Positions 18,115 through 56,270 of a DNA stretch of 64,000 nucleotides are shown one piece after another (position 1 is the first letter of the stretch; each line of letters begins with the position of its first letter). The translations under genes were made by a program, and so were the position numbers. Source of the DNA: Aestuariispira ectoiniformans (GTDB lineage Bacteria; Pseudomonadota; Alphaproteobacteria; UBA8366; Aestuariispiraceae); NCBI RefSeq assembly GCF_025136295.1, contig NZ_CP062788.1, positions 1 through 64,000 on the forward strand, in the 5' to 3' direction. Below the pieces are notes generated by a model. The model did no database searches. It saw only the letters and a program-made list of their open reading frames with translations, and was not told the origin of the DNA.

Positions 18115-18116
18115 AT

Positions 18117-19169: not shown

Positions 19170-19190
19170 TGTCCGTATTCCTGAATATGG

Positions 19191-20123: not shown

Positions 20124-20132
20124 GATCTACCC

Positions 20133-21071: not shown

Positions 21072-21116
21072 ATAATCACTTCCTACTGCAAAACTGATAG
21101 CATAAAATCCGCGCAC

Positions 21117-23030
21117 CTAGCGCAACATTGCCCGGTACTCGGCCGCCTTATCATGAAACTGTTGATGCCACAATTCCAGACTCAACAACCCCCAGGTCTT
21201 TCGTGAGAAGCGTCCCACTTTGTCAAAATTCTGCAACACTGCATCGTAATTGATGAAGTCCCTGGTCTTTGTTTTGGAGCCGTGGAAAATGTCCTGAACC
21301 ATATCAGAAAGCTCGCCCGCAAACCACTCACGCAACGGCACAGGAAAGCCCATTTTATCTCGCCGGTGCACCAATTCTGAGGGCAGCACATCTTTGTAAG
21401 TCTGCTTTATCATATGTTTCATATGGCCGCTTTCAAATTTGATGTCAGCGGGCACAGTCGCGACGAATTCTATCAGCCTGTGGTCAAGAAACGGGACCCG
21501 GCTTTCAAGTCCATGCGCCATACTCATACGATCTTCAACTTGCAGGAGCGCCGGCAGCAGACACTTAAAGTCAAAGTGGGTCATGCTATCGAAATATGCC
21601 TCTTTGCGAACGTTACGATGGTTATTGAAGATCGCCTTGAAGTCTTCAAATACCTTTTCGCGATTGAGACTATGCCAGTCGACTTCATCCTTCATATCGG
21701 TCGAGCGATCTACCAAACGGAAGTAACGCGCATCCAGCGGTTCAAACAGACCTTCGCGCCAGAATTCCTTGATAAGGGGCTTATATTCACGCAGAACTCC
21801 GAGATTAGGAATGATCGATTCCGGCGTAACAACGAAGTTTCCGTTTTTATATGTACCGTCTATGGCCGCTTTGATTGCCTGCTCAAAATAGGCGACAACA
21901 TAGCGGGCGTAACCACCGAAAATTTCATCCCCACCTTGGCCACCGAGAACGACTTTCACATGCTCACTGGCCAGCTTCGAGACCATATACTGAGGAAAGG
22001 AGCCGGGGCCGGCTGTCGGTACGTCAAGATGATAGACAACCTTTTCGATATGGTCGCAGAAGTCTTTCGCGGATATGTCGATCTGGTGCAAGTTCTGACC
22101 ACAGGAGTCAGCTGCCATCTGTGCGTAATGGCTTTCGTCATAGCCGTCAAAGCATGTGAACTTTCCGTGAAAAGCTTGATTGTTTTCCGGCGAGTGACGT
22201 ATGGCCAGACTTGCGATTAGGCTTGAGTCGATGCCGCCGGAAAGATAACTGCCAATCGGAACATCACTGCGAAGATGCACGTCAATGGAATCGTCCAATA
22301 ACTCCCTAAGGCGTTCATCGAAATATTTGGCGGTATGCATATAGTCAATGTCATAGCAGACATCCCAATACCGCTCGATTTTGATCTGCCCGTTTTCCAG
22401 TACCAACTGGTGACCGGGCATCAACTGCTTCACGCCTTCGAATAAGGTATGTTCGCCTATCGTATATTGAAATGTAAGATATTCTGAAAAGGCACCTGCA
22501 TCCGTCCGAATATCGGGAAGTAACGGGAGAAGCGCTTTGATCTCAGAAGCAAAGATGAGTGTGTCGCCAACAACTGCATAGTAAAATGGTTTGATACCGA
22601 ACCTGTCGCGTGCGGCAAATAAGCGCTTTTTACGTTCATCCCAAACAGCAAAGGCAAACATTCCACGCAGATGGCTTGTGCAATCGCTACCGTATTTTTC
22701 GTACGCAGCGAGAATCGTTTCGGAGTCCGACGAGCTCTCAAAGTTCCATTCTGAGGAGAGCTCCCTTTGCAATTCGAGATAGTTGTAAATTTCACCGTTA
22801 AACGTAAGCACCGAACCATTTGGGGCGGTCATTGGTTGCGCACCGTGATCGGTGAGGTCGATAATGGACAGTCGGCTGTGCGCAAACCCGACGTTCGCCT
22901 CTTGCGCCATCCACGTGCCGGCACCATCGGGTCCCCGATGCACGATCAACTGATTCATTACATTGAGTTTGTTCTCTAGATTAGGAACAAAGCCGTTGTT
23001 CAGGTTTACAATTCCCGCGACACCACACAC
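21117..23030 (-). CDS. asnB: Asparagine synthase-like glutamine amidotransferase
   Basis: A 637-residue two-domain enzyme: an N-terminal glutaminase of class II that must start with Cys right after the initiator Met, and a C-terminal AsnB synthetase domain with YLSGGIDSSL (pyrophosphate loop SGGIDS at about 264-269). An upstream ATG at 23042 would bury the Cys, so the GTG at 23030, directly before the TGT of CGVAGI, is the true start. HRGPDG and FNGEIYNY are the glutaminase blocks. In glycan operons such enzymes can turn a sugar carboxylate into an amide, which fits the diacetamido-uronate genes beside it. A true asparagine synthase is the other option. Confidence 0.93.
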   Translation of the reverse strand: MCGVAGIVNLNNGFVPNLENKLNVMNQLIVHRGPDGAGTWMAQEANVGFAHSRLSIIDLTDHGAQPMTAPNGSVLTFNGEIYNYLELQRELSSEWNFESSSDSETILAAYEKYGSDCTSHLRGMFAFAVWDERKKRLFAARDRFGIKPFYYAVVGDTLIFASEIKALLPLLPDIRTDAGAFSEYLTFQYTIGEHTLFEGVKQLMPGHQLVLENGQIKIERYWDVCYDIDYMHTAKYFDERLRELLDDSIDVHLRSDVPIGSYLSGGIDSSLIASLAIRHSPENNQAFHGKFTCFDGYDESHYAQMAADSCGQNLHQIDISAKDFCDHIEKVVYHLDVPTAGPGSFPQYMVSKLASEHVKVVLGGQGGDEIFGGYARYVVAYFEQAIKAAIDGTYKNGNFVVTPESIIPNLGVLREYKPLIKEFWREGLFEPLDARYFRLVDRSTDMKDEVDWHSLNREKVFEDFKAIFNNHRNVRKEAYFDSMTHFDFKCLLPALLQVEDRMSMAHGLESRVPFLDHRLIEFVATVPADIKFESGHMKHMIKQTYKDVLPSELVHRRDKMGFPVPLREWFAGELSDMVQDIFHGSKTKTRDFINYDAVLQNFDKVGRFSRKTWGLLSLELWHQQFHDKAAEYRAMLR

Positions 23031-23169
23031 TCTAATCACCATCCACTACAAAAAGCGGTTTTTTCACGAGTAAGACCGCATAAACGCACGCACAGGCTTC
23101 TTTACCAAAACGTGTAGGACTTGTAACCCTTTCAACGCAACCAGATGAAAAAAATTAAAGTTCATGGGG

Positions 23170-32852: not shown

Positions 32853-34040
32853 TTACTTCAAACGATTTTTCAAACAATTGCTGTTCTGTGATATCAATAT
32901 TGGATTTTCTACAGAATATAGACTTAGTCCCGGCTTACTAATCCGGAAATAGGGAATCTGCCTATCAAAAGCTGGATCAATCGACCAAGGCCCGAAGGGC
33001 GTCGATGCCGTCATGCGAACCACTACTTCAGACGTAACTCGCGGAAAAGCTCCGAAAACCGTGAAGTACCCGTTCCACTTATCCCCCTTCTTGAAAACAA
33101 AGCTTGGGTCTACTTTGTTCCTGAATATTGATGCGATTCGAAAACCGGAACTATCAAAAACCAACGGCCTATCCAGGAAAACCCTGCTTTTATCGGTTTT
33201 GGTAGCAACCAAGACCTGTACGTGATCCCCCTTATCATCCGAAATTACGACCGGCAAACCGGGCCGTAACCCGTTCACATCCTCAACCTCCAACTCAAAA
33301 GATGATCGTTCCCCAGAAGTGACGAGGCCATGATATCCGCCATTCTTATACATGACCTGATGGTTCTTATATGGCCCGAGCACGGAGCCCTGCGACACGG
33401 CAACTGCAGCCACCGCCTCACTATAGGAAGGCTCGCCGAACGCCAGATAAAACAAATAATATGTATCTTCCGATTTGCACAGATATGACGGTGCAACGCC
33501 TGACGCTTCAAACTCTTGGTCGACGGTAAACGCAATTCCCTGATACGTCCAATTCACGCCGTCTTTACTACGACTGACGCCAAGTTTTTGGCCGGGACCG
33601 GACGGCCCCCTAATATTAGCAATCATAAGAAACGGGAACTCTTCTTCGGGAAAATAGCCAATATGTGTCGATCCAATCCCTTTCTCTTCCGCGCCGGGAA
33701 TGTCTTTCGAGGAGAAAACGACGCCTTCATAGGTAAATGCAGAGCCGTTCTGAGATGTCCACAAGCCGACTTTGTGCCAACCTCCCGAATAGATAGAACT
33801 ATACAGGTAGGTCTTACCACCAACTCTTACCGCAGATGGCCATGCCAAATGCCGTGCGCCGATCGATTTAGGAGATAGGACTACGTGCGACCTGGGATAC
33901 CCGTCTTCATTGTATTCCGATATCGAATAATACCGGTCTGCACCATACTGATTCAGGAAAAATGCGTTTTCAGCGTGACCATCCTCTAAATAAAAAAAGC
34001 CACTTAATAAAATGAAGAAAAATAAAAAAGAATCTCTCAC
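32853..34040 (-). CDS. Secreted beta-propeller protein, glycosidase-like
   Basis: A 395-residue protein with an N-terminal signal peptide (about residues 1-22, FFFILLSGFFYLEDGHAE), then a repeating pattern of blades (WPSAVRVGGKTYLYSSI, HIGYFPEEEFPFLMIANI, YLFYLAF) like the five-bladed propellers of GH43, GH32 and GH117. I see no clear full set of three catalytic acidic residues, so it may bind rather than cut glycans. It lies 53 bases upstream of the GT39 gene. The IS element is just upstream of it, so its own promoter may have been separated. Confidence 0.65.
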   Translation of the reverse strand: MRDSFLFFFILLSGFFYLEDGHAENAFFLNQYGADRYYSISEYNEDGYPRSHVVLSPKSIGARHLAWPSAVRVGGKTYLYSSIYSGGWHKVGLWTSQNGSAFTYEGVVFSSKDIPGAEEKGIGSTHIGYFPEEEFPFLMIANIRGPSGPGQKLGVSRSKDGVNWTYQGIAFTVDQEFEASGVAPSYLCKSEDTYYLFYLAFGEPSYSEAVAAVAVSQGSVLGPYKNHQVMYKNGGYHGLVTSGERSSFELEVEDVNGLRPGLPVVISDDKGDHVQVLVATKTDKSRVFLDRPLVFDSSGFRIASIFRNKVDPSFVFKKGDKWNGYFTVFGAFPRVTSEVVVRMTASTPFGPWSIDPAFDRQIPYFRISKPGLSLYSVENPILISQNSNCLKNRLK

Positions 34041-34265: not shown

Positions 34266-34694
34266 CTAGGCCGCAGACTCATAACTTCTGATCCAGATGC
34301 GGCATGAAGCGAGCTTGACGGCAGCCAGGAAATTCTCTGGGTTACGGTCGTATCGCGTGGCGATGCCCCGGAATTGCTTGAGCTTGTTGAAGAAGCGCTC
34401 GACGAGGTTGCGCTGGCGATAGACCCAGCTTGAGAAGGCGAAGGTCTTTTTGCGGTTCCGTTTTGGCGGAATATTGGCCCAGGCCTTGCGCGCGTCGGCA
34501 AGGGCGCGGATGGCGTCACTGTCATAGGCCCGGTCGGCCAGCAGGATGGCCCCCTCCTTCAAGTCTTTGAGCAGGCCCTCCGCTGATCGGCCGTCATGAG
34601 CTTGCCCCGGCGTGAGGGCCAGTTTCACCGGCCGACCTTCAGCGTCGACAAGGGCATGGATCTTGGTCGTCAGTCCACCCCGGGAACGGCCCAT
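34266..34694 (-). CDS. IS5-family transposase, second frame (orfB), made by -1 frameshift
   Basis: The C-terminal half of the transposase, 142 residues from the first ATG: MGRSRGGLTTKIHALVD, the second catalytic Asp in LLADRAYDSD, and the catalytic Glu in VERFFNKLKQFRGIATRYDR. Reading the frame back to the slip site gives KGGSDDGCMGRSRGG, joining smoothly to orfA, so this is programmed shifting, not decay. Its stop codon TAG lies in the flank: the TA of the target plus the next base. Confidence 0.85.
   Translation of the reverse strand: MGRSRGGLTTKIHALVDAEGRPVKLALTPGQAHDGRSAEGLLKDLKEGAILLADRAYDSDAIRALADARKAWANIPPKRNRKKTFAFSSWVYRQRNLVERFFNKLKQFRGIATRYDRNPENFLAAVKLASCRIWIRSYESAA
34269..34284 (+). 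repeat. Left terminal inverted repeat of the IS
   Basis: Sixteen bases matching the right end inverted with two mismatches, at the sixth and eighth positions. Confidence 0.85.
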
Positions 34695-35041
34695 GCAGCC
34701 ATCGTCAGATCCCCCTTTTTACCGGTCGCACCATGCTGATGGACCCGGACGCAACTACTGTCGATCATGACGATGTCGCTGTCGTAAGCCGCTGAGATTG
34801 CCTCCAAAAGCCGATCCCATACCCCGGCCTTGCGCCAGCGGACGAAGCGATTGTAGCAGGTCGTATGGGGGCCGTAACGCTCCGGTATCTCCGCCCAAGG
34901 CGTGCCTGCCCGGAACCGCCACAGAATGCCGTTCAGCACCCGCCGGTCATCGACACGTGGTACCCCGCGCGGCTTGTTCGGCAGCAAAGGTGCGATAATC
35001 GACCATTCGAAATCTGTCAGTTCGTAGCGGCGGCGGCTCAT
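34670..35041 (-). CDS. IS5-family transposase, first frame (orfA)
   Basis: A 123-residue N-terminal half of an IS5/IS427-type transposase. It holds the DUF4096-like DNA-binding part (YELTDFEWSIIAPLLP, GILWRFRAGTPWAEIPERYG) and the first catalytic Asp in MIDSSCVRVHQHGA. ATG 35041 is used (MSRRRYEL); an in-frame start at 35065 is upstream. The last residues after GKKG are out of the family register; the product is likely read into the next frame by a -1 shift at the A5G5 run at 34711-34720. Confidence 0.85.
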   Translation of the reverse strand: MSRRRYELTDFEWSIIAPLLPNKPRGVPRVDDRRVLNGILWRFRAGTPWAEIPERYGPHTTCYNRFVRWRKAGVWDRLLEAISAAYDSDIVMIDSSCVRVHQHGATGKKGDLTMAAWAVPGVD

Positions 35042-35104
35042 GAAAACTCCCTCGTTCGGCAACAAGAGACATGAATCACATCAAGACCGAAAGGGGAATC
35101 CTGT

Positions 35105-38627: not shown

Positions 38628-40397
38628 TCAGTTTTTGGGAGGAACGGCGTATTCTTCTTTTTCCCCACCGCATTGTGCCGGCATGCCCTTGGCACCAATG
38701 GACGAAAGTATCCTGGCCACGTCGTATGGGAATTTCCGCCCGACTTCGCGAACAGCCTCAAAGGGGTAAATTCCATAGACAGGGCTGATGCCTTCCAGCA
38801 TTTTTGGGCGATCATCATATGCAAGGTCCGCCATCCATCGGATAGCAGTTACTTGTCCTGCTTCCAGCGATTGAAATAATCGCTTTATGTCAACAGGTGA
38901 ACGATAGTCAGGCGCCCCAGCGAGGCTTCCCTCAATAACTACCGTGTCCTCGACCATCACCGTCTGCACATACAATGACTTTCCACTATGCTTGCCTCGA
39001 AGCTTCGATTTTTGCAAGACGACCAGGCGCGCCAGTTCAGGCAGGAGCTTCCTCAATTTCTGAACATTACCATGTTCGGCAATCATGACCTTGATGACCA
39101 GTAGTGAAGCTCTCCAACTGCTTGCACAGAGAAACAGAATATGACCGATCTGACTAAGCAGGCTCCACTGGGCCCGCAATTGCCAAAACGGCTTGGATAT
39201 TGTGGCCGCCAGCCGATGATTTTCTGTGGAACGAGCCTTAATCAATCCCTGCTCCAACAAACGCCCGTGCTCTGCCTCAAGAGCAGTATCAACCAAATTC
39301 GCAAAGGATTGATAAGAATAGCGCCCGGAAGCGATTAAATCATCATATGCACGATCAGTAATACTTTCCAGAAAATCGTCATCATGAATCAGTTCCGCGA
39401 CCTCTGGAAAATTGGAGAAATCCCGTTCCAAGGGGATATAGTGTTGCCATGGCTGAATGACATTCCCGTAATGACCTGGAAACATTACCATTGCAGTACG
39501 TGTTATTGCCGCTTCGAATACTCTGGGCGAAATCGTGTCGATGACCTCGTTCCCCTCAAAGGGTGCAAGGACTCCTCGCGCGATTTCCTCGTACCCCGCG
39601 GCGGGTATATGTCGCAAATAGTTATGGACGCGGGTCTCAACCTGGCCGTCGAAGTCAACAATGCTTGCACCGCTGGGCGTCCCCAGAACTACACGGCAAT
39701 TCGACAGAAAGCGTTCCCAGTTTGACCCATAAATTCTATCAACTTCGCGGACGGACACATCTGTACTAAGCCCATATGCTGACGCTATTCGCTGGACACC
39801 TTCTGCTATAAGGACTTTTTCCCGCGCCAGATTGCCCAGCCAGGGTGCATTTTCACGGGACCGATACCCGACGTCAATTTTGCGCTGAGCCAACGAAACT
39901 GTGGGAAGGTTGGCAGCAAAATCCGGATGAACATATCCCGTTAAAACAGGAACGATCGTCATACTTTTTGCGTAAGGCTGCCGGTACACAGCATTTATGT
40001 TTTCTGACGGCACACAAGAAAAGAGTAGTCGAATTCCAAGCTCTTCCATGTGTGAAACGGTCAAGTCCACGTAACGGTATTCGTCCTGTATGAACTGTGC
40101 CTTCAAACAACGTGCCTGGCTGATGGCTTGCCGCCACGCTTTAGGGAGGTAAGCATCCCACAGGACCCATATCGAATAGTGAATAAGGATAACATCGAAG
40201 ACGTCGAGGGCGTTTTTCCCGGGAGCGCCTTCACGACGCGGGTTCCTTAACGTTACGTTATGCTGTGAATATTTTTCTATCGCGCCTATGTGCTCTAGGA
40301 TCGTACCAGCATGCGTGGGATTATTATGGTCAGCCAAAAGCAGTACGTTAAGCCGCTTCACGGTTTGTCTCTTTTCATTGCATAAACTCAATCGCAC
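38628..40397 (-). CDS. CgeB-like glycosyltransferase, single module
   Basis: A 589-residue protein with one copy of the module seen twice in the gene upstream: LLLADHNNP, IHYSIWVLW, FIQDEYRYVD, RIYGSNWERF, GASIVDFDG, SPRVFEAA and HYIPLERDFSNFPEV. The module (about residues 15-380) is a CgeB-type GT-B transferase; about 200 further residues resemble the tail of the bigger paralogue (a C-terminal beta-rich end with EAVREVGRKFPYDVARIL). Starts are uncertain: GTG 40397 or GTG 40361. It lies 17 bases after the tandem protein gene. Confidence 0.7.
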   Translation of the reverse strand: MRLSLCNEKRQTVKRLNVLLLADHNNPTHAGTILEHIGAIEKYSQHNVTLRNPRREGAPGKNALDVFDVILIHYSIWVLWDAYLPKAWRQAISQARCLKAQFIQDEYRYVDLTVSHMEELGIRLLFSCVPSENINAVYRQPYAKSMTIVPVLTGYVHPDFAANLPTVSLAQRKIDVGYRSRENAPWLGNLAREKVLIAEGVQRIASAYGLSTDVSVREVDRIYGSNWERFLSNCRVVLGTPSGASIVDFDGQVETRVHNYLRHIPAAGYEEIARGVLAPFEGNEVIDTISPRVFEAAITRTAMVMFPGHYGNVIQPWQHYIPLERDFSNFPEVAELIHDDDFLESITDRAYDDLIASGRYSYQSFANLVDTALEAEHGRLLEQGLIKARSTENHRLAATISKPFWQLRAQWSLLSQIGHILFLCASSWRASLLVIKVMIAEHGNVQKLRKLLPELARLVVLQKSKLRGKHSGKSLYVQTVMVEDTVVIEGSLAGAPDYRSPVDIKRLFQSLEAGQVTAIRWMADLAYDDRPKMLEGISPVYGIYPFEAVREVGRKFPYDVARILSSIGAKGMPAQCGGEKEEYAVPPKN

Positions 40398-40414
40398 CGC
40401 TGACCACAGGAATC

Positions 40415-43400
40415 CTACCTTGCATTTTCTATATAATAGACGAGATATCCCTTCCGATACTGATGAAGACGAGACAGGAAACGTAGTACATACTTTCCAT
40501 CGACTTCCGCATCCGTCTCAATGACAAAACGCCCCCCATCCTGTATCACGCTGGTGACGATAGACGGCATGAGCTCAAAGTCGTCGCGATAGTCGAAAGT
40601 GACCTTGATCTTGTCTCGCGCGCCAACCAGTTGCCAGAATTCTTCTGGTTTTACGCCCGCGTGTTGCCGACCATTCACGTTACCCACATGCACCTTGACG
40701 GTAATTGTACCCGATGCCATGTCAAAGACGATGGCGAATGGATAGGCTTCATCTCGCAGGCTTGCATTCACAATTCTCAGAATTTCCACCAGCGATCTTG
40801 TGTTCTGTCGCGCCGAAGAGTTCTTGCTATCATTCCTGAACCAGAATTTCAGCCCGTTGATGAAGTTCTCCAGCAGGTAAGACGCTTTCGTTATCAAATG
40901 CCATCTCAGCCACACACTTTTGGCATGCACACGATGCACAAACGATCGCAACTTAATGAGAGACAGGATGCAAACAGCATCAACGGACTTCAGGATCGGT
41001 TTGATTATGCTGGCAATGAGTGTCGGCAGCCTTGGAAGGAGGACCTCACCAACCCAGCATACAAGTGCCAGTCTTTTTCTTGCTGCAAAATTTACACATC
41101 GTTGAGGAAGGGAGAACAAGCGAGACAAAGTTAAGGTCCACGTTCGGGTTACCCTTCCATATCTCTTGAATTCTGGGACTATTATCCCTTTTGCACCGCT
41201 AATGGCGGCAGCAAACGCACTAAAAGACCTGCGGGCAAAACGTGTAGCAAGGGACGGCTTCCAAGGTAATAGATGTGCTTCAAACGGTTTCTTTTCTTGC
41301 TTTTGCTTTGCTGTCGCCTCGATAACGTCGTCAAAAGTTTGGGCCAAAACATCATACTGGTAAGCCGGGTTCTGGCCGATTTCCCAATAAGCACGGTCCG
41401 TAATCTCTTTGATTTTTTGAGAGTCGCGAAGGACGGCCACGACTTCATCCATATTGGAATGGTCTTTTTTCAAAGGCACATAATGGACCCAAGGCTCCAG
41501 GATGCCGCTGTATTCACCTTCATACAAGATCAGAAGAGTGTGGACCGCAACGCATTCAAATATGCGCGGCGACACCTGATTCAGGCGAATCTTGCCTTCC
41601 TCTTCTGCGAAATAAAGCTCTTTCAGTTCCTCAAATGTTGCGTCCGGGTTTTCTTTCACATGGTCGTCAACACGTTTTTGAATTTGACCGGTAAAATCGA
41701 AGACACTTGCGCCACTTTCAACGCCCAACATCGCCTTGCATCTGCATAGGAACGCGAGCCAATCCTCGCCATATAGACGATCCCCCTCCGTCCAACGGAT
41801 ATCGGTATTCAAGCCATATGTCGGGGCTTCCTCTTCAAAGCGGCGACCGATATGCATCTTCTCCTGAGCCAGCTCACCCAACCATGCAGGGAGATCACGA
41901 CCGCGATAGCCGACATCGATCGGCCGGTCATCGACATCGGGCGTATGACGCGTTGGCAAACCCGGCGGTACATACCCTGTCAACAATTGAACTCTCGTCA
42001 ACCCGGGCAAGTCTTCTGAGCTATAAACCTTCTCCCACTCTGACTGGGGTACACATGTGAAGAGCACATCCGCGTTGATCGAGAGAAGCGCAGCTTTCGT
42101 TCGGTCGACAAAGCGGTATTCATCCTGAATGAACACGGCTTTAACAGCATTTGAACGGGCGATACGGGCACGCAGGGCCGGTTCAATATAATTGTTGCGA
42201 CCGAGAATTACAGTCCAGTGAATGACGATGACGTCATAGGAATTCAAGTCGACATGCGCGGGAATCTTCGTCAAAAAGTTAATACATTCTACGTTGTTCC
42301 GCGACAGCTTCTCCAACGTATCGATCGACAGATTCCCGGATGCTCCGCGCTTGAATTGAATATTACACAACAGTGCAATACGTAATGGGCGCCTAACCTC
42401 TTTTACGTTCATACGCGCCGCGAACTCGTCTCGGCTGCGTTCGGAACTGTATAACTCCTGAAGATAACCACTTTCCTGGGGCCTGGGACGGCTTGTTACC
42501 TGAGTTTCGCGATAACGCTCATCGTTCAGGAAGCGGCAGATATCAACAATCTGCGACGCGCCGCGTGATCGGCTGTTCTTCTCAGGCAAAACCAATAATG
42601 GCGTCGCAGCGGATTTTTCTTTCAGGCGATGAAGCGAACGGTCAACCGCACGATCAAACTGTCTGGCAAAATGCGGCCAGGAATACTGATCGGATAGAGC
42701 CACGTCTTCGAAGGCCCTGTTTGCCATAGTCTGAAGGAAATCGACATCCTGGAGCATCTGGCAGACATCGTCGGCATTCGACATATCATGCTTCAGGGAG
42801 ATATAGTGCTGCCCCGGAACAATTGCGTCCCTGTAACGCCCCTCCAAAAGTACAAGTGGCGTACGCAGTGCAATCGCTTCGAAGATGCGGGGAGTGATTG
42901 TGGTGTGTACAATGTTTCCTTCATAAACAGACAACACCTTTTCGAAGACAGTATCGAAATCTGCATCCGGGTAGTCATCCAGAAAGACGCGAGCTCTGTC
43001 TGCGACGCCGTCAAAATCGAATATACTAGCCCCTCCTTCGCTCCCTAAAGTGGAGCGGGCCGAGCAAATGAAGCGGGTCCAGTCTTCGCCGTATATTCGG
43101 TCCTCATTTCTGTTGCTAAGGTCAACACGCAAACCAGCATTTTTTGCAATTGGACCGAATTCCTCAACAAGGACACTTTTCAAACGCGCCTGCCGACCCA
43201 GCCAATAGGGCAGATCATGGGTCCGGTATACAGAATCCAATTTGCGGTCTGCAATTTTCGGCACGTTCATGTCCACCAGGTCGCGCGTCACCACCCCCGG
43301 GAGGCTGGCGTAGGCTATCAGGTCCTGCTGCCCCGAATAAACCCTTTCAATATTTGCAGGCTCCAAAGATGAAAACAGGACATGAGTGCCCAACCTTTTC

Positions 43401-43855
43401 ATCTTTGCGTTCATATCAGCGATGTTTCGATATTCATCCTGAATGAACTGGAATTTGGGACCTTGGAAGTTGGCGATAAATTCTTCAATTTCCGGCGGCA
43501 GAAAGAACTTGCCGAGAGTATAAATGGAGTAGTGAATCAGGATTGCATCAAAATCCTGATCCTCCAACCCCATGGGAGAAGTATTAAGTATTGGATTTAA
43601 TTGATGAAAGTTGTGTTTTGAATAACTGACAAACGAATTGATATGGTCGCGGACTGCAGCAGCCGGATGCGAGTTGTCACAAATAAAAAGGAAGTCCAGG
43701 GAACGACTAACGAACTCATCCGTTTCAGGCACATCAGCCAAAAAAACGGGAGTGTCAGTCATCCCCGGACAGATCGACAGTTCTTTTTCAGGCTTCAGTC
43801 GCGGCCTGGCATGTCCGGATTCCCCGTTCAACTTGGCCCGACTATTTAGATACAT
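40415..43855 (-). CDS. Tandem two-module CgeB-like glycosyltransferase
   Basis: A 1146-residue protein with two homologous GT modules, at about residues 54-408 and 491-850, joined by an 80-residue linker, then a 300-residue tail with several hydrophobic stretches. Both modules share IHYSI/IHWTV, FIQDEYR, RxYGEDW, SGGAS/SGAS-FDF, SPRIFE and HYxxLKxDxSN. Each may transfer one sugar, as in bifunctional polymer-building enzymes. ATG 43855 overlaps the hydrolase stop by ten bases and follows AAGG; an earlier non-ATG start at 43891 is less likely. Exact reactions are unknown. Confidence 0.8.
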   Translation of the reverse strand: MYLNSRAKLNGESGHARPRLKPEKELSICPGMTDTPVFLADVPETDEFVSRSLDFLFICDNSHPAAAVRDHINSFVSYSKHNFHQLNPILNTSPMGLEDQDFDAILIHYSIYTLGKFFLPPEIEEFIANFQGPKFQFIQDEYRNIADMNAKMKRLGTHVLFSSLEPANIERVYSGQQDLIAYASLPGVVTRDLVDMNVPKIADRKLDSVYRTHDLPYWLGRQARLKSVLVEEFGPIAKNAGLRVDLSNRNEDRIYGEDWTRFICSARSTLGSEGGASIFDFDGVADRARVFLDDYPDADFDTVFEKVLSVYEGNIVHTTITPRIFEAIALRTPLVLLEGRYRDAIVPGQHYISLKHDMSNADDVCQMLQDVDFLQTMANRAFEDVALSDQYSWPHFARQFDRAVDRSLHRLKEKSAATPLLVLPEKNSRSRGASQIVDICRFLNDERYRETQVTSRPRPQESGYLQELYSSERSRDEFAARMNVKEVRRPLRIALLCNIQFKRGASGNLSIDTLEKLSRNNVECINFLTKIPAHVDLNSYDVIVIHWTVILGRNNYIEPALRARIARSNAVKAVFIQDEYRFVDRTKAALLSINADVLFTCVPQSEWEKVYSSEDLPGLTRVQLLTGYVPPGLPTRHTPDVDDRPIDVGYRGRDLPAWLGELAQEKMHIGRRFEEEAPTYGLNTDIRWTEGDRLYGEDWLAFLCRCKAMLGVESGASVFDFTGQIQKRVDDHVKENPDATFEELKELYFAEEEGKIRLNQVSPRIFECVAVHTLLILYEGEYSGILEPWVHYVPLKKDHSNMDEVVAVLRDSQKIKEITDRAYWEIGQNPAYQYDVLAQTFDDVIEATAKQKQEKKPFEAHLLPWKPSLATRFARRSFSAFAAAISGAKGIIVPEFKRYGRVTRTWTLTLSRLFSLPQRCVNFAARKRLALVCWVGEVLLPRLPTLIASIIKPILKSVDAVCILSLIKLRSFVHRVHAKSVWLRWHLITKASYLLENFINGLKFWFRNDSKNSSARQNTRSLVEILRIVNASLRDEAYPFAIVFDMASGTITVKVHVGNVNGRQHAGVKPEEFWQLVGARDKIKVTFDYRDDFELMPSIVTSVIQDGGRFVIETDAEVDGKYVLRFLSRLHQYRKGYLVYYIENAR

Positions 43856-44493
43856 TTCCGAATAACCTTTTCCAGCAACGGCGCGACACAATTGTAATAA
43901 AGATCATGCCCCTTGATGCTCAGATGCAACCCGTCATCCAGAACATGACCAGCAACACCATCATCCGTCTCTGCAATATGGGAACGAAAATGGCTTTCCA
44001 TATCGTTGAGCCATACATCCGCCCCTTCTTTCCGGGCGACCTCCCGAATGATTTCATTGTAGCGTTTATTGCCGGATTCGTATGCTTCTCCACCTGCCAA
44101 AATCTTATCTGTTAACGTGGTCGGGTGGTTTGTATTGAGAATAATTTCACGAGCACCAAACTTACGGCCACGCTCAATAATCTCATGAAGATTGGCGGCA
44201 AATGCGTCTGGACTGACACGCGGAAGTCCGCGGTCCGTCTGCCAGAAGTTGCAGTCATTCATACCGAACTGCACCAGAAGAAGATCAACACCCTGAGACT
44301 GAACTTCATATGGCATATTCTCAAGAGCATCACGAGTTGTACGACCGTTCTTGGATGCGTTTACAATGACCATTTCGCGGCCAAGCTCAGCGGCAAGTTC
44401 GTCAACCCGCGCAGCAACACGTGGAACCCAGCCCTTGTGGATGGATACCCCCTGCCCAAAGCAAATCGAATCACCGAAGAAAACGACCTTCAT
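43846..44493 (-). CDS. SGNH/GDSL-type esterase or acyl-hydrolase
   Basis: A 215-residue SGNH hydrolase: GDS with Ser9, an SKNGR block, GMND with Asn79, and DDGLHLS with Asp187 and His190 complete the catalytic set. No signal peptide. In a glycan operon such enzymes often remove or shift acyl groups on sugars. ATG 44493 overlaps the methyltransferase stop (ATGA), and its stop overlaps the start of the tandem transferase. Confidence 0.9.
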   Translation of the reverse strand: MKVVFFGDSICFGQGVSIHKGWVPRVAARVDELAAELGREMVIVNASKNGRTTRDALENMPYEVQSQGVDLLLVQFGMNDCNFWQTDRGLPRVSPDAFAANLHEIIERGRKFGAREIILNTNHPTTLTDKILAGGEAYESGNKRYNEIIREVARKEGADVWLNDMESHFRSHIAETDDGVAGHVLDDGLHLSIKGHDLYYNCVAPLLEKVIRKCI

Positions 44494-45188
44494 CTTGACT
44501 GGTCCCCTTTGATTGTCGTGACTATTACATGCCGTCCGTTAGGAAATATACTGTCGGATTTCGTTTCAAAAATATCCGCTGAAAAACCTTCGATCCGGCC
44601 TGCATACCGCTCAATCACCGGCCGAAGCATCGCCCCATTCCAAGCCAACAAGTAAAGAATTTCGTCACCATTCACGCGGCGTGTCTGGTAATAGCGGAAA
44701 TTGTTATAAACTGTCAGCGTAAGACGGATTTCCCCGCAAATTGGCAGAAAGTGTTCGATGAATGCCTCAACACGCTGATCAACATTGGGGAAAAGGTCGT
44801 TGGCGATCACCACATCAAAAGTCCCGGTGGAGGGCACATCGAGCCAGTCCTGTTTCCGAACCGCAAGATTTGGTGCCGCGTCGAAGAACGTCTGGACACT
44901 TTCTTCGGTATCATGCGCCAAAACGTCAACCAGTGTGCAATCATGCTTTTCGGAAAGAACCCGCTGGATTGTCGTCAGGCCCCCGCCAACATCCAGGATA
45001 CGACAACCGGACGTTTCCAAAAGGTCACTATAGACGGAAGAAGTCGCATAACGTTTTGCGGCACTGTCCATAAGCCACTGCTGACAAGTCAGCGATTTTT
45101 CATGCTCGAGGGCGCTATCCGATAGAAACCGCCCCAACCGATCATCTTCACTATATTTCGTCAGGCCTTCGCCACTTAACAGAAACAT
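44490..45188 (-). CDS. SAM-dependent methyltransferase
   Basis: A 232-residue class I methyltransferase: the SAM loop ILDVGGGLTTIQ, the acidic LVDVLAHD and DVVIANDLFPN. ATG 45188 (MFLLSGEGL) is chosen, with AGAGGG before it; upstream in-frame codons would overlap the sulfotransferase. It overlaps the SGNH gene by four bases. Together with the sulfotransferase it suggests a modified, probably capped glycan; methyl capping next to an ABC exporter with a Wzt binding domain is a known way to set chain length (inference). Confidence 0.85.
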   Translation of the reverse strand: MFLLSGEGLTKYSEDDRLGRFLSDSALEHEKSLTCQQWLMDSAAKRYATSSVYSDLLETSGCRILDVGGGLTTIQRVLSEKHDCTLVDVLAHDTEESVQTFFDAAPNLAVRKQDWLDVPSTGTFDVVIANDLFPNVDQRVEAFIEHFLPICGEIRLTLTVYNNFRYYQTRRVNGDEILYLLAWNGAMLRPVIERYAGRIEGFSADIFETKSDSIFPNGRHVIVTTIKGDQSR

Positions 45189-45199
45189 CCCTTTTCCCT

Positions 45200-46165
45200 C
45201 TATAAGAACCGCAGCGATGCCAACCGGTCGCCATTGGTTTCCACATACCGCTTGATCAGATCTACGTCCGATGTCGGCATTGCCCACGTTTTTCTGCCGG
45301 AAGCGCCAGAATTCAAAACACCCCTTCCCGACGGCGGGGTGACAGATACCCCCGTTAGACAGTCAATGGAAGAGGCTATCCGGCGTATTTCCCCCTCAAA
45401 ATCCTGCTTCAGGTCCTCGTACCACACCTCGACGAACCTCTGGCTTGGTAAATCATTCAAAGATTCTGACAAAGCCCGTCCGAATTCGTACTGATTTTCC
45501 ACCACCTGTTCGTAGTAAGGCCTTTTAAGCAAGTCATCATAATTACGAGGAGTTGCAGAATTCCAGGCCAAAGGATCGCCTTTGGTTACATAACGTGCAG
45601 CAAGGTCCGAGCTTGCGGCGTCGGCGATATCCCGCTTCAGCCAAATAAATGCGGCATTGGGGAATATCTCGCGAATTTGCTGCACCCGAAAGCAATTCCA
45701 AGCGTTTTTAATCAAAAAGGGTTTGGAGAACAACGCATATGCCGATTGGAATGTCTTAACAATGTGGCTGAGTTTCCCTTCTTGTATGCGTGCGCTTACT
45801 GTCTCCGAGGGATGCCCGCCGCCAAACCAGTTCGTCATGATGGCAGATGCTTCGGAAGGCTGCCATGCTCCTCCGGTTTTCCCAAAGGAACTCTCGAAGC
45901 TGATCGGAACATCGCCAATGGCCGCCCTTATGGTGAGCCCAATCATTGGCGTCTCAGCAAAATGCTCGTTTGTATTGTTATCAAAATAGGGTAATCCGAG
46001 TGCCGCCACCAAACTTTGGTACAAGAACGTGCTTCCCGTGCGCGGGGATGCCAGAATAAAGACCACAGGCGCGGTACTTGTATCGCCGCAGCTTGACGGC
46101 AAAAAAGTTTCAAAAAGCAGTTTCTCCATCTTGGGTAGTTTCTTGCTGTCACATTTTGCAGTCAT
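45200..46165 (-). CDS. Sulfotransferase
   Basis: A 321-residue sulfotransferase. The 5'-phosphosulfate loop ASPRTGSTFLYQSL is near residues 40-53, and FIWLKRDIADAASS carries the 3'-phosphate-binding Arg-Ser pattern; together they bind PAPS. It should add sulfate to a sugar of the glycan made here. GTG 46177 is an alternative start to ATG 46165. No PAPS-making genes are in the window. Confidence 0.88.
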   Translation of the reverse strand: MTAKCDSKKLPKMEKLLFETFLPSSCGDTSTAPVVFILASPRTGSTFLYQSLVAALGLPYFDNNTNEHFAETPMIGLTIRAAIGDVPISFESSFGKTGGAWQPSEASAIMTNWFGGGHPSETVSARIQEGKLSHIVKTFQSAYALFSKPFLIKNAWNCFRVQQIREIFPNAAFIWLKRDIADAASSDLAARYVTKGDPLAWNSATPRNYDDLLKRPYYEQVVENQYEFGRALSESLNDLPSQRFVEVWYEDLKQDFEGEIRRIASSIDCLTGVSVTPPSGRGVLNSGASGRKTWAMPTSDVDLIKRYVETNGDRLASLRFL

Positions 46166-46329
46166 CAGCTGTGGCACATCCTTCCTGTCATCGTTTCAAG
46201 CCCCCCTCAAACACCCAATTCAAAGGCATAAACCCCAAGCATATTCAGTCAGGAAACACACGTATTTTGCAGGTCACTGATTATGGGTATCGGGGAAACG
46301 TCAGAGTATCACCCGTCTCGCTCCGTACC

Positions 46330-47817
46330 TCACTCACCCCCCAAGCAAATACTCGGCACATTCTGAACTTCTTCACCATCTTGAAGAACCCATTTTGCAG
46401 GATGGTGGAATCGCGCCGGCTCGGAAGGGAACCGCGGCCTGACTTTGAACTTAAAACTTCTGGAGACCAAGTCATAGCGTACTGCAGTCGTCGAATTCAT
46501 CGGATCATAGTGTTTGAAAATACCCACAGAAAAGACGAAATCCCCCGAAGCAAGAAGGGTTTGGTCATATTTCAGCTTCACAACGCCTTCTTCGCCTTCC
46601 TCTAAATCAAACGTCATTTCATCACTCAGGTGACGTACGAATGGAGCCCCCTGGAGCGTCATGAGAAGTATGGTGAAACGCGCTGAGAATTCCCCTTTGA
46701 ATTCTGCTTTGAAACAAATTTCGATTTCGATCGGTTCGCCGCTATCAATGGTATCAGTCGACAAACCTTTGCTATTCAATACTGAAACGTGACTGATCTT
46801 CAGACCACGTTCGGATAACCAACGCGACCATTTCTTTTGCACATTTTCAGAGTTGGCTTCATCGGCGGGTCCATCCGCCGCAAGCAGGTTCATCATGCGG
46901 TCTTTTTGCCAATCCGGTGTCTCAAAATCCGAAGCCTTGCCTACGGCATTTCTCTGCTGCGCCTGCCCCCAGGAATGTTGTTGGCGCATTTTGGCAATGA
47001 ACTGCTCGTATGACTTTACAACATGCAGCGCTTCACCTTCCTCGACAACGCGCCCCCCCTCAATCCAAACGGCTCTGTCACAGAATTGAAGAATTTGCGC
47101 GGTCGAGTGGGACACCAATAACAATGTGCATCCCGATGCCGCCAACTTTTGCATACGGTACGCCGATTTTCCGGAAAAATACGCATCACCAGCCCCAAGA
47201 ACTTCGTCCACGATCAAAACATCCGGGCGAATAGACGTCGCTGTTGCAAACTGCAGACGCGCACGCATGCCTTTTGAGTAAGTCTTTAATGGTTGATATA
47301 GGAAATCGCCAAGTTCCACGAAATCGATTATTTCGCTGATGGCATTTTCCATCTGCTTTTCGTTCAACCCGGTATAAAGGAGGGCTGAACGAATATTCTC
47401 GATGCCGCTCAACTCTGCATGGAAGCCAAGCCCCGTCGACATCAATGCCTGGACAGATCCGTCAACTTTCACGTAGCCGCTCGTAGGGGCGAAGTTGCCC
47501 GTCAGCAACTTCAGCAAGGTCGTCTTGCCCGCACCATTACGGCCGACAATACCCACCCGTTCCCCGTGATGAATCGTGAGATCAACGCCGTTAAGCGCTA
47601 CATGTTCTTTACGTTTCTTGGGCTCATTTTTCCGCCAGAAGGCGAGTTTGTTCAGGTTGAGGAGCTCCGCCATCATTTCTCGCGGGCTGCCATACAGCCG
47701 GTAGGTTTTCGTCACTTGCTCGCAATGGATTGCAACCGAGGGATCCTCCGCGCCGACTTTCTCCGAAACTGGGGCTTTGGAGCGGCCAAGAACCTTGGCT
47801 GTGTTATGCGTAGTCAT
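46330..47817 (-). CDS. wzt: ABC exporter ATP-binding protein, Wzt type with C-terminal glycan-binding domain
   Basis: A 495-residue protein: the ATPase half has Walker A GRNGAGKTT (92-100), the signature YSKGMRARL and Walker B VLIVDEVL; from about 300 a beta-rich Wzt C-terminal domain follows, with EPIEIEICFKAEF and FSVGIFKHYD, as in Wzt of E. coli O9a, which recognises the capped glycan end. It energises export of a finished polysaccharide through Wzm. It overlaps the permease gene by 14 bases. Confidence 0.95.
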   Translation of the reverse strand: MTTHNTAKVLGRSKAPVSEKVGAEDPSVAIHCEQVTKTYRLYGSPREMMAELLNLNKLAFWRKNEPKKRKEHVALNGVDLTIHHGERVGIVGRNGAGKTTLLKLLTGNFAPTSGYVKVDGSVQALMSTGLGFHAELSGIENIRSALLYTGLNEKQMENAISEIIDFVELGDFLYQPLKTYSKGMRARLQFATATSIRPDVLIVDEVLGAGDAYFSGKSAYRMQKLAASGCTLLLVSHSTAQILQFCDRAVWIEGGRVVEEGEALHVVKSYEQFIAKMRQQHSWGQAQQRNAVGKASDFETPDWQKDRMMNLLAADGPADEANSENVQKKWSRWLSERGLKISHVSVLNSKGLSTDTIDSGEPIEIEICFKAEFKGEFSARFTILLMTLQGAPFVRHLSDEMTFDLEEGEEGVVKLKYDQTLLASGDFVFSVGIFKHYDPMNSTTAVRYDLVSRSFKFKVRPRFPSEPARFHHPAKWVLQDGEEVQNVPSICLGGE

Positions 47818-48589
47818 AAAAAACCTGCTTCACTCGAGAAAAGACCTTAAAGCCTATCAAAGAAACCAGCCACCCAAGTAGCAAGAACCCAACGCCGACC
47901 CCAACTCCCGGCATAGTTTGATAAACCAGGGCATGTTGATACATGCGAACGAAATAGTAGAGCGGGTTTATCAACAGCACCGGTTCAATACGGGAAGGAA
48001 CCATATCCTGGGTATATGCAATCGGGGTCACAACCAGCAGCGATATAATGATATATTGAAGAATGTGCTGAATGTCCTTTACCGCAAGAGTGAGCAACGA
48101 GAGCATCCACGCTATGCCACAGGAGAATAGAATCTGGAAGAGCATCACAACCGGCAATAACAGCATTGTCCAGGACGGACCAACGATCACCGCAGCAGCA
48201 ATAGCAATGATTGGCACTCCAAATAGAAGCGGTCCGCTGGCTACGAGAACAGCGCGAACGGGTAACAGTTCCGGTGGATAGCTTGTGCTGACAAGAACCT
48301 CTTTGCTCGTCCGAATGCTCTGGGAACCGGAGGACAAGGCACCTGCAAATGCCATGAACGGTAATAGGCCGGACATCACATGCAGCACATATTGTCCCGT
48401 TGTCAAAGCGACCGGGCGAACCTGGAAAACCACAACATAAATAGCAGCATAAAGACCGATAAGCAGCGCAGGTCCCAAAACAGCCCAGAGAACGCCAAGA
48501 ACCGACCCCGCATATTGTTTTTTTAGTTCCAAAACCGTCGAACGCCAAAGTAATTGACGGTTCCGATAAATCGAGAGCAGTGCTTCCAT
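47804..48589 (-). CDS. wzm: ABC exporter permease, Wzm type
   Basis: A 261-residue integral membrane protein with about six helices of the ABC-2/polysaccharide-export type: QLLWRSTVLELKKQYAGSVLG at the front and the INPLYYFVRMYQ loop near the end. It forms the channel with Wzt for an undecaprenyl-linked polymer. It is the first gene of the minus-strand run that reaches 26118. The gap at 48590-49478 holds its promoter. Confidence 0.93.
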   Translation of the reverse strand: MEALLSIYRNRQLLWRSTVLELKKQYAGSVLGVLWAVLGPALLIGLYAAIYVVVFQVRPVALTTGQYVLHVMSGLLPFMAFAGALSSGSQSIRTSKEVLVSTSYPPELLPVRAVLVASGPLLFGVPIIAIAAAVIVGPSWTMLLLPVVMLFQILFSCGIAWMLSLLTLAVKDIQHILQYIIISLLVVTPIAYTQDMVPSRIEPVLLINPLYYFVRMYQHALVYQTMPGVGVGVGFLLLGWLVSLIGFKVFSRVKQVFYDYA

Positions 48590-53650: not shown

Positions 53651-54790
53651 ATGCTGAATCTATGTACTAGTTGTTTGTATCCAGAGACTAAACCCGACCT
53701 GGTTTTTGATGAAAGTGGAGTTTGCAGCGCGTGCAACAACTTTCAACAACGCAAAGCAGTCGACTGGGACAAAAGAAAGCAGGAACTGGTCGAAATCGCA
53801 GAGCGATATCGTTCGAAAGATGGATCAAACTACGACTGCGTCGTGCCGGTCAGCGGTGGTAAAGACAGTACCTACCAGGTAATTCGAATTCTTGAACTCG
53901 GACTTAACCCGCTCTGCGTAACTGCAACCACCGATTCTCCGTCTGAACTCGGCCGCCGCAATATCGAGAACATTAAACGGCTGGGTGTTGACTATATCGA
54001 AGTATCCGTAAACCCCGTCGTCCGAAGAAAACTAAACCAACTTTGCCTTGAAGAGATCGGGGACATTTCCTGGCCCGAACATGTTACGATCTTTACACTC
54101 CCCGTGCGTATCGCGGTTCAAATGGGAATCCCGTTAATTGTCTGGGGCGAAAACCCACAGAATGAATATGGCGGCCCTGCTGCTGCTGCAAGCGGCCAAA
54201 CCCTTACCCGGCGGTGGCTGGAGGAGTTTGGTGGGCTGCTTGGCCTAAGGGTTTCCGACTGGGTAGGCAGGCATGGCATAGAGGCTAAACATCTGATCCA
54301 ATACTCTTACCCAAGCAACGAAGAATTAGAGCGCGTTGGGGTAACCGGCATTTTTCTGGGTCATTATGTGCCATGGGACGGCATGCAAAATGCAATAATC
54401 GCCCAGGCACACGGTTTCGAATATTATCCTCACCTGGTGGAAGGGTCGCTCGCCAGTTATGAGAACCTCGACAACTATCAAACCGGAATTCACGATTATT
54501 TCAAGTATTTGAAGTTTGGTTTCGGTCGAGCCACAGACATCGCCTGCAATCACATTCGCCGGGGCCGTTTGCTCCGGGAAGATGCCTTGAAATTGGTGGA
54601 AATGCATGACGGGCAATTCCCTTGGACATGCCTTGGCAAGCCAATTGAAGAAATTCTCGCAGAAATTGACATGACTTTGGACGATTTTCTTGTTGTTTGT
54701 GATCGCTTCACCAATCGCAAAATTTTCCAGACCGATAACGAGGGCAATATAATCCGTGACGAAGACGGCAATCCGATCAAACGGCATTAA
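53651..54790 (+). CDS. pseA: N-acetyl sugar amidotransferase, PseA/WbpG type
   Basis: A 379-residue ATP-pyrophosphatase enzyme: SGGKDS at 68-73 and a zinc-binding four-Cys set (Cys5, Cys8, Cys25, Cys28). PseA of Campylobacter and WbpG of Pseudomonas turn an acetamido group into an acetamidino group, with ammonia from HisH/HisF-like partners, and those two genes follow here. It is 34 bases after pseC. Which amino group is changed is not shown. Confidence 0.92.
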   Translation: MLNLCTSCLYPETKPDLVFDESGVCSACNNFQQRKAVDWDKRKQELVEIAERYRSKDGSNYDCVVPVSGGKDSTYQVIRILELGLNPLCVTATTDSPSELGRRNIENIKRLGVDYIEVSVNPVVRRKLNQLCLEEIGDISWPEHVTIFTLPVRIAVQMGIPLIVWGENPQNEYGGPAAAASGQTLTRRWLEEFGGLLGLRVSDWVGRHGIEAKHLIQYSYPSNEELERVGVTGIFLGHYVPWDGMQNAIIAQAHGFEYYPHLVEGSLASYENLDNYQTGIHDYFKYLKFGFGRATDIACNHIRRGRLLREDALKLVEMHDGQFPWTCLGKPIEEILAEIDMTLDDFLVVCDRFTNRKIFQTDNEGNIIRDEDGNPIKRH

Positions 54791-55508
54791 CCGACGAAGG
54801 CCTGTGCCGGCCCAAACCGCCCTCCGTAAAGGGAAGCGGTTAGCTGACCGTTCCCGTTTGCAAAGTAGCGACAAAGTTTCGAGCGCCACAAAAAAAGAAG
54901 TTGTCATTGTCGACACTGGACTATGCAACCTCGGCTCCATAAAGAGAGCGTTAGAGGTCAACGATTGTAGGGTCCTCGTGGCGCTGTCGCCGTCGGAGAT
55001 TAAAAATGCCAGCCGTCTTGTAATCCCTGGCGTAGGTGCGTTTGCCTCAGCCATGGAACGCTTAAACAAAAGCGGTATGACGGATGAAATCATTTCCGCT
55101 GCACTTGGTCGAAAAATTCCGGTTTTAGGTGTTTGCCTTGGTATGCATTTGCTTGCTCGCATCGGCTGGGAAGAAGGCGAGACAGAGGGTTTAGGGCTGC
55201 TTGGTGGCAGCGTCATGCCTCTTCAGCCAACTAGCAGGCAGGAGCGCGTTCCACATGTTGGGTGGAATTCAGTGCAAGTCACCAACGATTCACTTTTAAC
55301 TAAAGACCTGCCTTTGGATGCAGATTTCTATTTTGTCCATTCCTACCATTTTGTGGCAGATACCCCAGACAGCATAATCGGAAGAACCCCATATTGCGGT
55401 GGTTTCACCTCGATAATAAACCACGAAAACATTTACGGAACTCAGTTTCACCCGGAAAAAAGTCAAAAAAACGGAAAAATAATACTTAAGAATTTTTTGT
55501 CATTGTAA
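54756..55508 (+). CDS. HisH-like glutamine amidotransferase for a sugar amidotransferase
   Basis: A 250-residue class I glutaminase. The triad is Cys127 in GVCLGMH, His232 and Glu234 in QFHPEK. About 45 residues precede VVIVDTGLCNLGS, the usual start of HisH proteins, so the start is unsure: GTG 54756 overlaps pseA by 35 bases, and TTG 54858 would give a normal-length protein. It supplies ammonia to its HisF-like partner and PseA, not to histidine synthesis, since no other his gene is nearby. Confidence 0.88.
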   Translation: MTKTAIRSNGINRRRPVPAQTALRKGKRLADRSRLQSSDKVSSATKKEVVIVDTGLCNLGSIKRALEVNDCRVLVALSPSEIKNASRLVIPGVGAFASAMERLNKSGMTDEIISAALGRKIPVLGVCLGMHLLARIGWEEGETEGLGLLGGSVMPLQPTSRQERVPHVGWNSVQVTNDSLLTKDLPLDADFYFVHSYHFVADTPDSIIGRTPYCGGFTSIINHENIYGTQFHPEKSQKNGKIILKNFLSL

Positions 55509-55517
55509 AGAAAAACA

Positions 55518-56270
55518 ATGTTAAAATTACGCATAATACCAACATTACTCTTCAAAGATACTGTATTAGTTAAAAGTATACAGTATGGGTCGCTCAGACG
55601 CGTTGGCTCCGCCAGGCAGGCTGTCCGCGTCAACAATCTCAGAAACGTCGACGAGTTACTTTTTGTGGACATCGGCGCAACACGCACAAATAGTATCCCT
55701 GACGTTCAACTAATCGACGATATTGCAGACGATTGCTTCATGCCATTAACTGTCGGTGGAGGCATCAAAACCCTGCACGACGCTCGCTCACTTTTCGCTG
55801 CTGGGGCCGACAAAATCACATTGAATTCCGCAATAGCAAGCAACCCCGGCATAGTTCAAGAGATCGCACAGATATTTGGAAGCCAAGCGGTTGTCGCTTC
55901 AATAGACGTACGTTGCATTGATGGGCAGTATACTTGCTACACAAATAACGGCGAAAACCCGCTCGACACCCCCCCTGCCGAACTCGCGCAGCGGCTGCAG
56001 TCTCTTGGAGCAGGTGAAATACTTCTAAATTCCATCGACAAAGACGGGACAATGGATGGGTATGACCTCACAATAATCAAAAAGATTAGCGAGGCAACGC
56101 AGCTCCCCATCATCGCATCTGGTGGAGCGGGAAAGCTGGAGCATTTTGCACAAGCAGCCGCCGCCGGAGCCAATGCGCTTGCTGCGGCAAGCCTCTTTCA
56201 TTTTACCGAGATTACGCCGTCTGATGTGCGAAATTTTCTTGGCGAACAAGGTTTCAACGTCCGCAAATGA
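55518..56270 (+). CDS. HisF-like partner lacking the first catalytic Asp
   Basis: A 250-residue TIM barrel of the HisF family. The normal CLDVKD motif reads TLLFKD, so Asp11 is Leu, while Asp130 in ASIDVR is kept. Without Asp11 it cannot be a proper cyclase of histidine synthesis; it likely passes ammonia from the HisH-like protein to PseA, as proposed for WbpH/WbpI-type and PtmF-like partners. It starts nine bases after the HisH-like gene. Clear family; role by context. Confidence 0.9.
   Translation: MLKLRIIPTLLFKDTVLVKSIQYGSLRRVGSARQAVRVNNLRNVDELLFVDIGATRTNSIPDVQLIDDIADDCFMPLTVGGGIKTLHDARSLFAAGADKITLNSAIASNPGIVQEIAQIFGSQAVVASIDVRCIDGQYTCYTNNGENPLDTPPAELAQRLQSLGAGEILLNSIDKDGTMDGYDLTIIKKISEATQLPIIASGGAGKLEHFAQAAAAGANALAAASLFHFTEITPSDVRNFLGEQGFNVRK

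Follow-up and report, generated by a model that had tools for sequence, protein, structure and literature searches.

In ABC transporter-dependent pathways, cytoplasmic glycosyltransferases, one or a few in number and often multi-module, polymerise the polysaccharide chain, and a coiled-coil length ruler is a marker of several such polymerase systems. In the S-layer glycan cluster of Geobacillus stearothermophilus, WsaE, with two glycosyltransferase domains, and WsaF are encoded next to wzm and wzt and jointly make the repeat (PMC2943079). In Klebsiella pneumoniae O7, ORF6 (two glycosyltransferase modules) and the standalone ORF7 polymerise the chain in vitro, and several characterised ABC-dependent modular polymerases have founded new glycosyltransferase families (PMC11231755). 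KpsC also contains two glycosyltransferase modules, followed by an amphipathic C-terminal membrane anchor; these modules are Kdo transferases that make only the short capsule linker (PMC10148158). In the wbsalmo cluster of Aeromonas salmonicida, the genes of Wzt, a sulfotransferase-like protein and the multi-glycosyltransferase protein WbbB of 1122 aa follow each other in that order (PMC4483657).

We analyzed positions 1 to 64,000 of contig NZ_CP062788.1 of Aestuariispira ectoiniformans (the window), where a tandem two-module glycosyltransferase and a single-module relative are encoded together with a Wzm permease and a Wzt ATPase. By analogy, the nearest layout is that of WsaE and WsaF, which likewise combines wzm and wzt with a two-glycosyltransferase protein and a separate single glycosyltransferase. 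WsaE is, however, a rhamnosyltransferase with a methyltransferase domain in its own chain, whereas the methyltransferase-like protein of the window has its own gene and the modules belong to an uncharacterised family. The O7 system shares the two-glycosyltransferase chain, the standalone enzyme and the ABC-dependent pathway, but the ORF6 modules are of the GT2 type and its chain includes coiled-coil and terminator domains, in contrast to the GT-B modules seen here, beside which no such domains were found. The two related modules in one chain, the basic amphipathic C-terminus and the ABC-dependent pathway are shared with KpsC, which differs in sequence family and in its role in Kdo linker synthesis. 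The likeness to A. salmonicida WbbB, described as a homologue of Klebsiella WbbB, is in the order of Wzt, sulfotransferase-like and multi-glycosyltransferase genes (PMC4483657). An earlier reading of the sequence alone, which knew of no enzyme with the arrangement found here, was thus too broad with respect to WsaE/WsaF and O7 ORF6/ORF7, and stands for this family. A dual-glycosyltransferase protein with a single glycosyltransferase in an ABC transporter-dependent cluster is already known; what is new is a same-family tandem of an uncharacterised GT-B family. No description of such a tandem was found in the literature searched, which lay mostly outside subscription journals.

Relationship, fold and integrity of the modules

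The tandem gene (40415-43855), which like all genes of the operon and the distant relative treated below is on the reverse strand, starts with an ATG at 43855 and ends with a stop codon at 40415. Within one frame, the family profile matches its 1146-residue product twice (E 4e-139 and 5e-160). The first module, m1, comprises residues 51-430 (42566-43705), and is followed by a linker of residues 431-495 between the aligned modules (42371-42565; pLDDT mostly <50). The second, m2 (residues 496-880; 41216-42370), is the more canonical of the two as judged by alignment, conservation and tree. The C-terminal tail (40418-41215) is basic by charge (+18 over residues 881-1060) and has amphipathic stretches by hydrophobic moment, followed by a small terminal region; it may contact the membrane. 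No significant relative of the tail was identified among the fetched sequences. The single-module gene (38628-40397) begins 17 bases past the end of the tandem gene with a GTG start codon and encodes 589 aa, with the module at residues ~11-390 and a basic tail at ~391-589 (+12) that also has amphipathic stretches. A tail domain common to the tandem, the single protein and their relatives was suggested by eye, and gained no support from BLAST or hhalign.

BLASTP comparison of m1 and m2 gave 32.6% identity over 347 aa (E 3e-62), while the module of the single protein shared 38.2% with m1 (E 6e-80) and 36.9% with m2 (E 3e-81). These E-values exclude chance similarity, and agree with the sequence-only reading that one module occurs twice in the tandem protein and once in the next gene. 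The more distant copy that it saw at 15846 (C407; 15846-17069) was also recovered by BLASTP, tree and alignment, with weak BLASTP matches to the operon modules (23.8-37.8% identity locally, E 1e-11 to 2e-13); C407 is located outside the operon, next to a WecB-like/epimerase/AsnB cassette. No other family members were found in the whole 4.36-Mb genome. The C-terminal halves of m1 and m2 (35% identity) are more alike than the N-terminal halves (26%); since the family medians are 33% and 26%, respectively, this is the usual pattern of the family and says nothing about whether the two modules share a donor.

No Pfam or NCBIfam model matched the tandem or single protein above its cut-off. PF13524 (Glyco_trans_1_2) scored 22.2 bits against the tandem (curated cut-off 25) and did not match the single protein, so that the family name 'CgeB-like', given to the modules at first, is unsupported. 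The protein of the distant gene scored 23.7 bits with this model (25.9 in a six-frame search), and some relatives elsewhere exceed the cut-off (e.g., L022 with 27.4 bits). The GT90 model PF05686 matched m2 only, at 11.6 bits (E 0.13; curated cut-off 24 bits). A PDB search with a profile of 11 relatives retrieved the GT90 enzyme POGLUT1 (E 1.7e-4), with an alignment confined to PWxHYxP in the donor half. The modules resemble GT90 (POGLUT1/Rumi) and PF13524 locally, around PWxHYxPxxxDxSN in their C-terminal donor half, but both proteins of the window are below both curated cut-offs. We found no characterised member, with a known activity, of the family.

In AlphaFold models, built with alignments for m1 and the single protein, confidence was high over the module and low for the tails. 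In structural comparison, phage T4 alpha-glucosyltransferase (AGT; 1y6f) matched over ~305 residues with Z ~20-21 (20.9 for m1 and 20.8 for the single protein), and GlgM and BshA with Z ~19-20. Judged from the models, the single protein and m1 have a GT-B fold, with two Rossmann-like domains that match solved GT-B enzymes, which agrees with their initial designation as glycosyltransferase modules; m2 would share this fold as judged from its sequence. The nearest match, T4 AGT, points to a GT-B fold only. Most of the top matches are retaining enzymes; inverting GT-B enzymes (T4 BGT and, among the Foldseek matches, POGLUT1) match as well, and the stereochemistry of sugar transfer can therefore not be read from the fold.

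The motifs IHYSI/IHWTV, FIQDEYR, RxYGxxW, GASxxDFxG, S/TPRxFE and HYxxLxxDxSN, named in the sequence-only reading as shared by all four copies, are present in all three operon modules and largely changed in the distant gene. We scored 26 near-invariant residues, conserved in at least 90% of a 64-row family alignment. All were kept in m2 and the single module. In m1, three of the 26 differ (T to P, Y to V and S to T), including the TGY motif. All three modules keep the conserved Arg, Lys and Glu (R169, K184 and E285 in single-module numbering), which by analogy with GT4 enzymes are putative donor-phosphate and donor-sugar residues. None thus lacks all donor-site residues, and a degenerate module in the operon is unsupported. 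Because nearly all near-invariant residues are kept, the operon shows no alternation of plainly dead and live modules, for which the sequence-only reading had proposed to look. The only clearly altered copy in the genome is the distant gene, with D95 to N, K184 to R, D238 to E and E285 to D in the same numbering.

In a maximum-likelihood tree, m2 is nested among many ordinary members with a single module and the single gene groups with proteins from another alphaproteobacterial family, while m1 branches deep, and its branch is longer than those of the other two operon modules. Forcing m1 and m2 as sisters was rejected (AU p 0.0127) in a tree where several forks are weakly supported and the m1 branch is long. 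A recent in-place duplication of one module was therefore discarded. Since the tree separates m1 from m2 and rejects their sisterhood, fusion of two already diverged single-module paralogues is the likelier origin of the tandem.

Gene neighbourhood and distribution of the family

The partly overlapping genes of the run are arranged in the order wzm, wzt, sulfotransferase-like, methyltransferase-like, GDSL-like, tandem and single. Wzm (47804-48589) is an ABC-2 permease with six hydrophobic segments (PF01061, E 9e-9; Wzm/RfbD model E 1e-9, under its cut-off). Wzt (46330-47817) is a polysaccharide-export ATPase with a Wzt_C domain (PF00005, E 4e-24; PF14524, E 3e-9), for which the top NCBIfam classes were TagH and Wzt/RfbE, both under their cut-offs. 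Next are the sulfotransferase-like gene (45200-46177; PF13469, E 2e-19), the methyltransferase-like gene (44490-45287; PF13649, E 4e-4, under its cut-off) and a gene for a GDSL/SGNH hydrolase- or acyltransferase-like protein (43846-44493; PF13472, E 7e-22), which overlaps the tandem gene by 10 bases. The methyltransferase-like and GDSL-like pair (43846-45287) recurs in G179 (L061:5033-6930), where the cluster likewise encodes Wzm/Wzt and a family module. A crude heptad scan revealed no coiled-coil length ruler in the operon genes; Wzt_C is present. Genes for an LPG_synthase_TM protein, a GT2 and a VimE-like deacetylase are located 3' of the single gene. Pieces of a DDE transposase, likely a decayed insertion element, are found at 34266-35065, after the operon and ahead of the next genes.

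Five other genomes, a Bacillota among them, have a Wzt/TagH-class ATPase in the vicinity of family members, namely Cohnella (L014), G179 (L061), G786 (L087), G863 (L091) and G1003 (L093). Many members elsewhere have no ABC transporter within the stretch read, and many adjoin an AsnB/epimerase/WecB-like cassette, showing that the family is not specific to the ABC-dependent pathway. This cassette (AsnB-like, three epimerase/dehydratase and WecB-like genes) is located at 17071-23042 in the window, beside C407, and was also observed in L053, L089, L090, L013 and L060; it recurs beside family members or beside C407 in several genomes. As a guess from the neighbourhood, it may supply the donor sugar. 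A flippase-like gene in the window (13877-15391) and Wzy_C proteins in the genome show that a second assembly route exists. Wzy_C (PF04932) itself had no match within the window, where other Wzy types could escape the model; the two matches of the genome are at 1.03 and 3.82 Mb.

At 53651-56270 of the window, HisH-like and HisF-like genes that follow a Pfam-less gene of 379 aa resemble sugar-amidation sets, and genes related to this set were also found near a family member in L054 (G350). A 395-aa protein (32853-34040) gave faint GH43/GH32-like matches only; it has a homologue (L095:10319-11512, E 1e-44) that is located close to a family member in G969. The GC content of the window is ~0.57 in the first 12 kb and ~0.50 over most of the remainder, a drop that would fit a horizontally acquired surface-glycan island.

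Our survey covered ~1,255 genomes, and a contig collection of 84,980 species was scanned once with a pattern. The family is sporadic, found in ~10 of 385 genomes of the class and 3 of 398 of the phylum at E ≤ 1e-25 (counts that include the genome of the window), and is commoner in some orders. Beyond this genome, carriers were 20 of the ~1,255 genomes, 10 named contigs (Bradyrhizobium, Caulobacter, Cohnella and a gammaproteobacterial MAG among them) and eight viral contigs. The family is scattered in Alphaproteobacteria and also occurs in Gammaproteobacteria and Bacillota, often with several paralogues per cluster. The eight viral contigs, all single-module, are from IMG/VR; tblastn searches of plasmids and phages and single-sequence viral queries were without a match, and a plasmid or phage origin was not retained.

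Members elsewhere are mostly single-module, and among all those found in these genomes and contigs no other same-family two-module frame was identified. Separate neighbouring family genes were observed in G786 and G831 (two single-module genes with a third a few kb off) and in G1003 (two), consistent with an origin of the tandem by fusion; the close-set pairs of G786 and G1003 are a split form of the tandem. Another kind of double, in which a canonical GT4 precedes one family module in the same open frame, was found in G766 (L057:14424-17108, 895 aa) and G969 (L095:4566-7208, 881 aa), and is possibly another dual-module polymerase type. The G969 protein has a coiled-coil-like stretch at its end.

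Candidate function of the tandem and single-module proteins

A two-module protein and a third copy that adjoin an exporter of finished chains probably build a sugar chain. Based on the precedents of WsaE/WsaF, Klebsiella O7, KpsC and Aeromonas WbbB, we therefore consider it reasonably probable that the tandem and single proteins act in the cytoplasm as glycosyltransferases that extend the chain of an ABC-dependent, O-antigen- or capsule-like polysaccharide. The modules would be held at the inner membrane face through their basic tails and take turns in adding sugars to a lipid-linked chain, each forming one linkage, so that up to three residues of the repeat could be placed by m1, m2 and the single module. 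A chain end decorated with a sulfate, methyl or acyl group may be read by Wzt_C, before export by Wzm/Wzt. Counting against this reading are the negative result of the crude scan for a coiled-coil ruler, the second assembly route and the many family members that occur away from ABC transporters. The earlier proposal that a bifunctional transferase or polymerase acts with the single-module paralogue is partly supported, by the polymerase-like context beside Wzm/Wzt and the intact-looking modules; the bifunctional polymerase itself we infer.

The main rival is a bifunctional, non-processive tandem that adds two successive residues once, as in an adaptor, primer or side branch, while another enzyme polymerises. 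KpsC, whose two modules make no more than a short linker in an ABC pathway, is a precedent, and further glycosyltransferases are encoded in the window (GT4 at 12573, 61068 and 62210; GT2 at 36654). No other glycosyltransferase gene is located between wzm and the tandem, however, and the third paralogue directly downstream is a better fit to a repeat-unit set, which leaves this explanation rather unlikely. Still less probable is that m1, as the most diverged module, serves as a non-catalytic binding or scaffold module in an enzyme of one activity: its altered near-invariant residues, the TGY motif among them, and its long branch point in this direction, but the Arg, Lys and Glu that a donor site would be expected to contain are all retained, and the AlphaFold fold of m1 is as good as that of the single module.

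Alternatively, other genes of the island might make a glycan, either of Wzx/Wzy type or linked to protein, on which the modules act, the nearby ABC transporter being unrelated. In keeping with such a role, the island encodes a flippase-like protein (Polysacc_synt_3) and, next to sugar-modification genes, an MsbA/PglK-like ABC protein. This alternative is highly improbable, given that the tandem overlaps the gene 5' of itself in the wzm-wzt run and that export ATPases recur near family members in other genomes.

Beyond the predicted chain-extending role of the two proteins, we tentatively suggest that this uncharacterised GT-B family, which touches PF13524 and GT90 in the donor half, may include processive polymerases, with three diverged paralogues, two of them fused in one protein, that would each set one repeat linkage of an ABC-exported, possibly sulfated polysaccharide; both the CAZy family and the type of polymerase might then be new. 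The tandem and the split pairs of the family offer a natural comparison for module fusion and linkage setting in polymerases.
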